Part shown: positions 13,210 to 64,000 of the stretch, piece by piece
Layout: the number at the start of each line of letters is the position of its first letter
How positions within the stretch are numbered: the stretch's first letter is position 1
Made by a program: the position numbers and the translations under genes
The notes under the pieces: model-generated
What the model was told of the DNA's origin: nothing
The model's input: the letters and a program-made list of their open reading frames with translations, nothing else
Databases searched by the model: none
NCBI GenBank assembly: GCA_037576195.1
Contig: CM075102.1
Coordinates: forward strand, 16,364,745-16,428,744
Direction: 5' to 3'
Length of the DNA: 64,000 bases
DNA from: Phytoseiulus persimilis
Taxonomy: Eukaryota; Arthropoda; Arachnida; Mesostigmata; Phytoseiidae

Positions 13210-14010
13210 TCAGCGCTGAGGAAGCCGACCACCAGCTCCCGTTGAACCTTGGGTAGGTGCTTGCGTTGTTCTCGGTTTCATAGGCCCCCCGGTCATTTGA
13301 CTCGTACCGGGTTGCGTCATTGGCCCCCTCGACATTTGACTCGTACCAGGTTGCCTCATTGCCCCCCTCGACATTTGACTCGTACCAGGTTGCCTCATTG
13401 GCCCCCTCGACATTTGGCTCAGATCAGATTGCCTCATCGGCCCCCTCGACATTTGACTCAGACCAGGCTGTCCCATTTGGCCTCTTGACATCTGGCTCAT
13501 GCTCCTCGAGATTTGACTCATCCCTCTCGACATTTGACTCAGACCGGGTGGTCTGTTCATCATCGAGAGATTCTGATAGGAGCTCAGCATGGGCGCGTGC
13601 CTCCCGAGTTGAGACATATTGGGCCCACTGAGAACCGAAACCTGTGGGCGGCCGTACTGGCCTGACATCATGGAGATCATCATCGGTTGCATTGTTGACT
13701 GCTGCTGTTGTTGTCCATAATCTCCCAACATCGAGATTATCACTGGCTGTTGTTGCTGACCCATCATCGACAAAATTATCGGCCGCGATTGTGCAGGGGG
13801 TGGATCCTGTCGCCCCATCATGGAAATGATGATTGAGCGCTGTTCGACGGGAGGTTGTGGCCGTGGACCTATCATCGAAATGAATATGGGCTGCGGAGGC
13901 GGTGGAGGAGCCGGGCGCTGACTCAGCATGGAGATGATGATCGGCTGCGAAGGAGCGGGTTGAGGGGCCTCTGGCCCCATCATGGAAAGATATATTGGCG
14001 GTTCACTCAT
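13210..14010 (-). CDS. Met/Pro/Gln-rich protein of two tandem repeat types, function unknown
   Basis: This is an uninterrupted 266-residue frame from ATG at 14008-14010 to TGA, with a poly(A) signal downstream. The N-terminal half contains seven copies of a hydrophobic motif of the form (I/V/Y)-x-(I/L)-S-M-(M/L/I), such as PIIISMMG. They are separated by Pro/Gln-rich spacers of 12-20 residues. The C-terminal half is built from a 13-residue unit, LSQMSRGPMRQPG, repeated about seven times at 39-bp spacing, ending in a short Gly/Thr-rich tail. No signal peptide or membrane span is obvious and there are no cysteines in the repeats. The start could instead be an acceptor-side exon boundary, since TTTTATGACCAG directly precedes the ATG. 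I do not recognise a family. A structural, cuticle-like or condensate-forming role would be guesswork. Confidence 0.65.
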   Translation of the reverse strand: MSEPPIYLSMMGPEAPQPAPSQPIIISMLSQRPAPPPPPQPIFISMIGPRPQPPVEQRSIIISMMGRQDPPPAQSRPIILSMMGQQQQPVIISMLGDYGQQQQQSTMQPMMISMMSGQYGRPQVSVLSGPNMSQLGRHAPMLSSYQNLSMMNRPPGLSQMSRGMSQISRSMSQMSRGQMGQPGLSQMSRGPMRQSDLSQMSRGPMRQPGTSQMSRGAMRQPGTSQMSRGPMTQPGTSQMTGGPMKPRTTQAPTQGSTGAGGRLPQR

Positions 14011-48944: not shown

Positions 48945-49907
48945 TCGATGATCGGTTTGGGTCCGGAATGCCGAAAACCCGGAATACCGAAAACCCGAAA
49001 TACCGAAAACCCGAAATACCAAACGCCCTGAATCCCGAAAACCCGGAATGCCGAAAGGTGTTCCCCTCCCGTCGGAGAGCAGCTGAGACTTCTATGTCGA
49101 GCGCCGAGCCCGGCCGTGGAGGCTTACTTGAAAGCATTGACATTCACGGAGGACTGCCGGAATCATTCGCCGGAGCCTACCCGGATCATTCGGGAGCCGT
49201 TGTATGCTGGGTTGAGCCAAGCAAGGTTGTCAGGAATCTTGGGAATGTTATGACAGTCCTCGAAAGTTCGAGATTCTTTGATGAATGCCAGTCCTGATAA
49301 GCCTGCTCTGCCCGGTTAACTTGGCGAAACTTGAAGTCGAATTTTCGGAGGAGCTCGCCTTGTTCCGTACAAGAGTGGCTGATTGACCACGGAAAGCCCA
49401 TACACGAGGCCATCTGAATCTGAAATCCTCATCTGTTCCCTTCAATCGTATCTGGTTGTATACGGAACCCGTGCCGGCGCTCGTTTGACGATCAACGTCA
49501 GCGCTGAATTGAGAACAGCATTGCAGATCTGGGAGCTATGCGCGGTTTCAAATAGGTTTTGGGTTGGTGGTGAAACGGGACCTCTTCGACCTCCGGGACC
49601 CACCAGCGAAGCGGGTCCCCGACTGTTCTCGTATATGTGAGCGGCTGCTGTATGTTGGATACGATTTATGAGGAGACTTGCTCACAGATTCGGATTTGAA
49701 CCGTTCTGGAATCCATGGATGTTAGTGAGCGCCGTCGAATCCACTTTCATAGCTGGAATCCGCACTCGGCATAGAAGCCTCGGTTGATGTAACACGAGAC
49801 CAAAATGATTTTCGGTATTTCGGGTTTTCGGTATTTCGGGTTTTCGGTAATTCGGGTTTTCGTTATTTTGGGTTTTCGGGATTCCGGGTGCACACCTCGA
49901 TGATCGG
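48945..49907. mobile_element. Foldback-like element with minisatellite termini and 11-bp target-site duplication
   Basis: An exact 11-base direct repeat, TCGATGATCGG, lies at 48945-48955 and at 49897-49907. Directly inside each copy are inverted termini. On the left, CCGGAATGCCGAAAACCC is followed by tandem 15-16 base units of the form GAAATACCGAAAACCC to about 49050. On the right, the reverse complement of the same array runs about 49808-49890. The two termini align base for base from the duplication inward for about 60-80 bases. The 750-bp interior has no transposase and looks unique. Tandemly repeated inverted termini with a 9-11 bp duplication are features of Foldback/MULE-type DNA elements, so this is best read as a non-autonomous member. 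Confidence 0.82.
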
Positions 49908-61689: not shown

Positions 61690-64000
61690 TTGTTTGAAGC
61701 CGGCGGGAGTCGCGGGAAACTCTCTCTGTTGGTCGTGTTATTCATCGGTCGGCTCCCGCGCCGAGCCAGGCGGCGAGCTCGGCTGAGCCCCCACGAGATG
61801 TTTATCGCGGACTCGATCCAGCATCAGTGCGCGAGTCCGCGAGCTGGTGGCCGAAATGACACAGAGAAATTATTCCCGTTCGTAGCACAATTGTCAACGC
61901 TCGCGGATATCTCAGTGAGGCAGAGCGGAATAGAAGACACAGAGGGACTGGACAGCGGCGGACACCGACAGATGAGGCTCAGTGGCAAACGAACCCAGTC
62001 GGACGAGGCACGCGGGAGCGGTCGAGGGAAAACAGGAGGGAAATGGCGTTTTTGGGGCGTCCTGCTGAAGACCATTGACCTCAATAGGAGTTCCCCTCGT
62101 AGCTCACAGTGTAGACCGCTCCGTCGGTTTCCGGCCATTTGTAACTTCATCCTGGCCGGCTGCTATTGGTCACCACCCTCTCTATACGATTCATCCCTAG
62201 CAGGAAGCGCTCACTCAGTCGATGATCTCGATTGGATTGCTGGCTTTCAATTTCTCGGCATTGTTTTCGACCCGTCCCACCTCGGAGCCGAACTCGGTCT
62301 CAGGAGCTCGAGGCGGCGGGATGAACTCGCGCTTCTCTGCCGCGGAAAATATCCGGCGGCTATTGATTATAACCAGAGCTGCGAAGATTGGGCACCAATC
62401 GTTTTTCTCCGTCGATCCATCCACAGGGGCGGAGGGAGAAATTGGCGTAGGATGCATGAATTTCTCAGCATTCATGGTGGTCAAGCACTGTAAATAAATT
62501 CATCACCTAAATATACGATGGATGAAAAATCCAGGATGTATCCCAGATGAGAGATCCAGTGAGAGCTCGAGGCTTATGACCTAGCTTTCGCAGCTCTCAT
62601 CATCGAACAGATTCCGATTGCAATATTTCAAGACGCGCAAACGCTGGATATCGACGATCAATTTTTCAGATCGCCGCCTCCCACAAGCGAAGCTCGAGTT
62701 CGGGGTAGAGAGAGAGAGGATCAAAGCAACGGCTGTCGTTCGGGTCGACACCTGTATCAGGGAGACTTGACCCTACCTCCAAGAATACCACACCCTAGCC
62801 TCCTCATGGACCCCCAATCAGTCAGCTGACGGTTGGTCGTCGTCTCGTTGAAAAAAACTGCGCTAGAACCTCCATGATTGGTACAAAATGGTTTCAAATG
62901 TAGCCGACATGATGCTGAGCTGCGACGCTGAGTCGACATGGAGGATCCAGGCGAAGCAAGTGTGTACTGGGGGGATGGTAGTGTAAGAACATATAAACAT
63001 GAGCCCTGAAGCCTCGCTTCTCGGAAACCCCATTATTCAAGCAAGTGGGAGCAGACTGATTTTCCGAATCTGATGACTTCTGACATTTTCCCTCCCAATA
63101 TCTGCGGATTCAGATAATTGATCTGAATTGTTCCCGAAAATGCCCAGTTCCACGAGCTTCAATTTTCTGATGGGGAGCCTTCAGGTGCGACGCTTCGAGA
63201 TACTCGCTATTGAGAGGATTCCCGACCGCGCTGGTATACCTGACAGAGCTCTGCATCGTCATTTGTTGCGGAAGCGAATCAACGCTGGTTATCTTCCATC
63301 AGATCATTAAAAAACCGTTGGCTTACCCCCATCCATCTCGTTTGAAGTGGTCTCTGGTCTCAAACAGCAATTTCATGGAGCCATACAACCAATGTAGGAT
63401 CGCTCAGACGAAGCTGACGGGGAAAAATGAACACGGAGCTCACCCCGACAGCATCTGCTCCTTGTTATCGGTGAAACGCCCCGCCACAGATCACCCGCAC
63501 TGCTGCGGCTTCTTCCTATGATGGTGCAAATTAAACGGGCATACCTCATTGGAGAGACCCTGAATCAGGAGTCTTCGGGGAAAAACGGCACGGAGGATGA
63601 ACAGAATCGGAAGCATTGACGGCTCCCTATTGCGCCCTGTGGGACCGCGACGCGCCTCCAACTCAGTGTGACCTTCGAGAGGAAGAAAGCTGAGAGGAAC
63701 TTCGTCATCTTTGTTTCGACCTTCATCGGCCGGAACTCCCGAAACGAGTGGCAGGGTCCGTTCAGAAGAGCTGAGCATCTGAACAGAGGTCGCCCCCTGA
63801 AGAATACAGCCTGCTGGAGGAGGAACCATAATCATTTATTAACAATGTCCAAGGTTGTATTTTTCTGCGACTGACGTGACCATCGCAGCCCGCACGTCGA
63901 CCGTTCTCCATCTAGTTCTTTCTCCTTCGCCCGACTCCCAGTGTCATCATTGCGGAAAAAATACTCCTCCAAACTCCTCGCTGCAGTGCCCGCGACAAAC
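61690..64000. other. Right edge, unassigned frames
   Basis: A 267-codon plus frame at 61690-62493 (first ATG at about 61799) is the longest unassigned frame in the window. Its sequence is compositionally mixed and two other frames are also open there. A minus frame at 63491-63835 (MIMVPPPAGCILQGATSVQM to LIQGLSNE) ends at a plausible GTATGC donor near 63544 and could be an exon of a gene reading toward lower coordinates. ACATATAAACATGAG at about 62990 resembles a core promoter on the plus strand. No homology is recognised. Confidence 0.3.

Follow-up and report, generated by a model that had tools for sequence, protein, structure and literature searches.

A foldback-like, non-autonomous MULE with 16-bp tandem-array ends in the genome of the mite Phytoseiulus persimilis

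The window, the whole stretch of 64,000 nucleotides analysed here, covers positions 16,364,745-16,428,744 of contig C2 in a 181-Mb assembly of 127 contigs, four of which are long (28-55 Mb). The 943-bp segment at 48954-49896 is a complete non-autonomous MULE whose foldback-like ends are built from a 16-bp unit. Its components and flanks are as follows (window coordinates):

48945..48953, no strand: left target-site duplication TCGATGATC, 9 bp, identified by comparison of copies and by the recurrence of 9-mers and 11-mers in the window
48954..49896, plus strand: non-autonomous MULE of 943 bp with GG...CC ends; boundaries from the comparison of 28 two-ended copies
48954..49056, plus strand: left terminal inverted repeat of 103 bp, a tip of ~11 bp followed by 16-bp units (CCGAAAACCCGRAATA)
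49057..49809, plus strand: internal region, in which two sub-terminal regions of a long element are fused
49546..49547, no strand: internal-deletion junction with a 2-bp TT overlap; 3.28 kb present in the long copy L009 is absent here (alignment with L009)
49810..49896, minus strand: right terminal inverted repeat of 87 bp, with the 16-bp unit inverted
49897..49905, no strand: right target-site duplication TCGATGATC, 9 bp; the GG at 49906-49907 is flank

Elsewhere the window carries an ORF that we take to be elongase-like, a minus-strand ORF (13210-14010) rich in SQMSRG-type repeats that overlaps a 39-bp tandem array (13278-13482), and a 45-bp minisatellite at 2207-2641 and 2787-2932.

The 11-mer TCGATGATCGG occurs at two sites, 48945 and 49897, and at no further site on either strand of the window, and its first nine bases have one additional site at 62219. 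At a spacing of 952 bases, an 11-mer recurs at one of 63,000 window positions and a 9-mer at three, the number that a single 11-base match yields by itself. Apart from this match and the 9-mer registers it contains, neither 11-mers nor 9-mers recur at this spacing in the 63,000 positions. A preliminary description had proposed an exact 11-bp target-site duplication around a segment of 941 bp, and the 11-mer does border that segment exactly on both sides. However, all 28 two-ended copies begin with GGTTTG (in a search whose pattern began with GG and allowed three mismatches), which assigns the GG at 48954-48955 to the element. This leaves a duplication of 9 bp around an element of 943 bp, and the GG following the right duplication is a chance match to the element's first two bases. 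The same coincidence is found at another copy (L029), which has GG after its 9-bp duplication and whose empty paralogue has GG at that place too, and duplications measured outside GG...CC never exceed 9 bp. A duplication of exactly 11 bp at the window copy is very improbable, being ruled out by the comparison of copies.

Arrays of a 16-bp (8+8) unit were detected at 48963-49056 and, inverted, at 49809-49889 (Tandem Repeats Finder). The unit had been given as 15-16 bp, of which 16 bp is borne out and 15 bp is not. It had also been stated that the two arrays align from the first base inside the duplication. The arrays do align, but the outermost ~11 bp, which form the asymmetric tips GGTTTGGGTCC and GGTGTGCACCC, pair just partly. 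Both ends vary in length, mostly by multiples of 16 bp and in a few cases by half a unit (8 bp), and the lengths cluster at 71, 87 and 103 bp. Among the 28 two-ended copies, the left end measures ~103 bp in 15, 87 bp in five, 71 bp in three and 119, 95 and 31 bp in one each (two were not delimited), and the right end 103 bp in 13, 87 bp in nine, 71 bp in two and 135, 119, 63 and 23 bp in one each. By eye, left and right lengths do not vary together. The terminal inverted repeats are long where delimited (63-135 bp), as is characteristic of the MULE superfamily, except in L039, with ends of 31 and 23 bp and yet a perfect 9-bp duplication. Either short ends suffice or these ends shrank after insertion. 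Because its inverted terminal repeats consist of tandem arrays that vary in length, the element belongs to the Foldback type, which is a structural and not a phylogenetic class. Genome-wide, a 32-base two-unit pattern had 118 matches with up to three mismatches (none for the reversed control) and the left tip pattern 49 (none for its control). One young copy, L016 (C3:14,554,114 onward), ends in the right tip GGTGGTCACCC instead of GGTGTGCACCC and is without target duplication.

Searches of the genome with the segment and its array, suggested earlier as a check, revealed many copies. The segment gave at least 110 matched pieces; 40 of 124 candidates were scored and copy counts are lower bounds. 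Copies are spread over contigs C1-C4. Thirty-five loci were retrieved, and the tips were scanned in 34 copies (33 loci and the window copy; the partial matches L041 and L043 were left out). Both tips are present in 28 of these (26 short and two long) and were not both found in six (L010, L033, L035, L038, L040 and L042). Exact duplications lie directly outside GG...CC in 24 of the 28 two-ended copies (9 bp long in 15, 8 bp long in nine), lengths within the 8-11 bp characteristic of MULEs. All 24 differ in sequence, in agreement with the earlier expectation that other copies would carry duplications of their own. By eye, the 24 sites show no clear target consensus, and no link between 8- or 9-bp duplications and array length was seen (by eye, without statistics).

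The remaining four two-ended copies (L016, L021, L026 and L027) have no exact duplication; reciprocal recombination among them was rejected, their flanks not matching each other by eye. Some array matches fall outside the described copies, and at two such loci (L052 and L059) neither tip was found. Array copies without duplications, which the preliminary description had taken as a sign against its proposal, thus exist in part, as these four copies and some tipless related arrays. We read both as decayed or rearranged relatives. Paired ends were found at six of 12 divergent loci scanned (L053, L054, L057, L058, L060 and L061) and one end or none at the other six (L052, L055, L056, L059, L062 and L063). 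All but L061 of the former constitute a second related short group (0.7-0.84 kb) with similar tips, whose main pieces are 86-93 percent alike mutually and ~77-85 percent alike to the window copy over shared inner parts. Two of these six paired-end elements have an 8-bp duplication and four have none. A further copy, L033 (C1:16,763,544 onward), lacks ~130 bp of its right end. At the break there is an exact second copy of the bases beside its left end, (A)TCAGAGTC, with the A shared with the element and a target site of 8-9 bp. This pattern would be the expected remnant of incomplete gap repair after excision, suggesting cut-and-paste movement. No repeat of this type was seen by eye at the truncated copies L035, L038, L042 and L041.

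Empty sites, also suggested for examination, were found for at least eight of 24 insertion sites. The flanks of 24 copies were joined with a single target copy and searched in the genome; 40 of 224 candidates were scored, many of the 40 being taken by one dispersed repeat (the L012 target), and the count is a lower bound. Eight joins (L011, L012, L014, L017, L020, L022, L024 and L029) have uninterrupted full-length matches at 93-98 percent. In the one match retrieved per join the target is present once in all eight cases; five of these targets are identical, and three (L012, L014 and L029) carry one substitution, as expected at that divergence. For the other 16 joins, the window's own included, no empty paralogue was among the 40 matches scored. 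The insertion L011 is flanked by BED-like (E=0.0018) and DUF659-like (E=0.0053) frames, both below Pfam cut-offs, and seems to split a hAT-like gene.

A partner carrying a MULE transposase had been sought as well, and elements with the same ends and a MULE domain do occur. With the inner part of L009 as query, at least three long copies were identified, the other matches being fragments (40 of 62 candidates scored):

C3:27.82 Mb: long copy L009, 4257 bp, both tips, duplication GAGTAGACT
C1:54.16 Mb: long copy L011, 5424 bp, both tips, duplication ATGTTCAAT; 95 percent identity
C4:22.50 Mb: long copy L010, left end missing; 99 percent identical to the C3 copy

They share with the short form the tips and ~0.6 kb plus 0.3 kb of sub-terminal sequence, and the short form is therefore the descendant of such an element. 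The distance between the two parts of the window element, bases 1-594 and the part from base 593 on, is larger by 3.28 kb in L009 and by 4.47 kb in L011, and a smaller indel of ~19 bases is located near base 640. The same internal-deletion junction is present in all 26 two-ended short copies, with at most one difference around it, and the alignment with L009 reveals a 2-bp TT overlap (microhomology) between both parent sides. Since all 26 share this junction with its overlap, the short copies go back to one founder. Divergence was computed for the 25 short copies with a delimitable inner part (L036 was dropped, its left inner anchor not being found). The median of all 300 pairs is 2.6 percent. 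Three pairs, formed by L016, L019 and L020, are identical over 732 bp, and the window copy differs from these copies at 4 of the 732 sites. Older short copies are also present (L039, ~8 percent). The identity of three copies over 732 internal bases implies that movement is recent, so that the short element appears, from its sequence, as a recently mobile deletion derivative of a Mutator-type transposon.

Read from the right towards the left end, the long copies encode a FLYWCH block, followed by a MULE block and C-terminal blocks. MULE-domain matches are present in all three, the one in L009 (PF10551, E=2.5e-10) over the Pfam cut-off. The FLYWCH match (PF04500, E=2.7e-7) is in L011, and a homologous block sits upstream of the MULE block in L009 and L010, in two frames there. 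The FLYWCH zinc finger is thus N-terminal to the MULE domain, as in the Phantom clade. Two further L009 blocks and one L011 block have no Pfam family over cut-off. The transposase reads in several blocks. Across the compared copies, the breaks that separate the MULE and C-terminal blocks agree in position, which would fit short introns, a possible but unproven interpretation. In another reading block, behind these possible introns, the motif NHLEGWHN presumably contains the third DDE residue, the catalytic E. Within the MULE block, two Asp are 65 residues apart, with CxxH after the second; this distance is 60-76 in all but one of the twelve arthropod MULE clades described in the available part of a recent survey (PMC13359780).

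None of the three long copies found looks fully intact: the MULE block of L009 shifts frame near residue 254, L010 is truncated at the left, and L011 has a stop within the MULE domain as well as a nested insertion of 1.15 kb. They are candidate but unproven sources of the transposase of the short form. The nested insertion is surrounded by a repeated 12-base stretch of the host element, and much of it (L011:4781-5438) consists of the 45-bp unit family present as a minisatellite in the window, which is probably part of another dispersed, minisatellite-bearing element. Fragments of the transposase region, mostly 86-90 percent identical, are found at L064 and L065 (C3:24.21-24.55 Mb) and also on contigs C112 and C125. 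They stand in repeats ~2 kb and ~9 kb apart, possibly reflecting a satellite-like amplification or a small-RNA cluster. No relatives of the MULE block were confirmed in viral contigs. The genome is MULE-rich, with at least 150 MULE-domain matches (150 of 220 candidates scored), of which 147 are over the Pfam cut-off and many lie in open frames of 400-650 codons.

This abundance bears on the question of which protein moved the short form. It might be a MULE derivative whose movement depends on another MULE transposase, encoded intact elsewhere in this genome (cross-mobilisation), with the three long relatives as dead passengers. The at least 147 matches over cut-off, with their long open frames, and the damaged appearance of the three same-ended copies would fit such a scenario, but the long relatives have the tips and the sub-terminal sequence in common with the short form, and we consider it possible though rather unlikely. 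Explanations that dispense with a MULE altogether fare far worse. Array lengths shifting in 16-bp steps might be expected of a tandem-repeat or recombination product, that is a dispersed minisatellite or a segmental duplication and no transposon. However, the precise common boundaries and the 8-9 bp duplications speak against this origin, the single-target empty sites rule it out, and its probability is negligible. Nor is there any appreciable chance that a Foldback-like member of the P superfamily, of the Galileo type, converged on the same structure. Galileo ends are similarly repetitive internally (PMC3688188), but the same-ended long copies encode MULE and FLYWCH domains, and neither THAP nor P-element transposase is among the Pfam matches of seven reading frames.

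It is very likely, in our view, that the short element is a non-autonomous MULE derived by deletion, that its ends are foldback-like tandem arrays, and that a FLYWCH-MULE transposase of the kind found in its same-ended long relatives mobilised it in trans. A complete non-autonomous element of Foldback/MULE character had been suggested from the window alone, and copies, duplications, empty sites and MULE-bearing partners agree with it. The genome sequence itself shows the shared termini, the 8-9 bp duplications, the empty sites, the one internal deletion, the near-identical copies and the MULE-bearing long relatives. The transposase would recognise the tips and the repeated units with their CCGAAA motif, the latter probably by means of its FLYWCH zinc finger, then cut the element and insert it at a site cleaved with a stagger of 8-9 bp. 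An internal deletion, closed across the 2-bp overlap in the manner of interrupted gap repair, may have produced the founder of the short form, and slippage or unequal exchange may then have added 16-bp units to the arrays and removed them.

More tentatively, the 16-bp (8+8) arrays might act as a tunable landing strip for the FLYWCH finger, the number of units setting the strength of an end. The copies would then constitute a natural allelic series (left 31-119 bp, right 23-135 bp) of one recently active founder. If this were true, the role of tandem ends in Phantom and Foldback elements would become directly measurable. The family supplies one founder, many near-identical copies of differing unit number, same-ended relatives with transposase domains, and empty sites. 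Beyond the question of tandem ends, it is an ordinary transposon family, to be named and masked in annotation.

Phantom MULEs were reportedly studied by Marquez and Pritham in 2010, a work known to us through the papers that cite it. According to the available parts of the sources, some members of the group carry FLYWCH, duplications where given are 8-10 bp and hosts include arthropods (group 20, PMC6446971), while the ends of some contain tandem repeats (PMC3688188). On the basis of FLYWCH plus MULE and duplications of 8-10 bp (PMC6446971), Phantom is the likely clade of the mite element. A close counterpart is Tm1, a Mutator/Foldback family of Meloidogyne (Gross and Williamson 2011, PMC3169594). 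As far as the accessible text goes, it likewise has FLYWCH and a MULE transposase in a rare long form and MITE-like short forms, composite ends with variable counts of a tandem unit (~14 bp), asymmetric terminal tips (7 bp), duplications of 8-10 bp, mostly 9, and paralogous sites with and without the element. The two differ in unit sequence, unit length (16 bp here against 14 bp), tip sequence and host. Moreover, some short copies are identical here and stem from one internal deletion, whereas no two Tm1 elements are described as identical and the family was judged inactive and senescent (PMC3169594).

Tetris of Drosophila virilis combines a Foldback structure with tandem repeats and 8-10 bp duplications; unlike the present family with its same-ended long copies, it is reported, in the part of the paper available, without a transposase-bearing copy having been found (PMC4079207). 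By its description, Foldback FB4 of Drosophila is similar in being non-autonomous with 9-10 bp duplications and in having been suggested to be a MULE, but its ends are ~700 bp, against ~100 bp here (PMC8277862). Galileo of Drosophila, also likened by description, has internally repetitive inverted ends. However, it belongs to the P-element superfamily, with a THAP domain and ends >1 kb (PMC3688188). The THAP domain of its transposase was shown to bind at sites within the tandem units, and the tandem repeats of Foldback and Phantom as binding sites were called untested in the same source (PMC3688188). By analogy, the CCGAAA units may be bound by the FLYWCH finger, in parallel to the Galileo units and THAP. 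A 2026 survey of arthropod MULEs puts the length of inverted repeats at 13-1193 bp and that of most elements at 2.5-5 kb, within which our 4.3-kb long copy falls, and the word "tandem" does not occur in the main text of that survey (PMC13359780). Among the papers listed in literature searches by description, none is on a foldback-type MULE in a mite. The earlier statement that no description of this unit was known may hold for its sequence, but the architecture has been described already in Tm1, Foldback and Phantom. The element closely matches in architecture Tm1 of root-knot nematodes and the Phantom-type MULEs, and is a new family of an already known kind of element.
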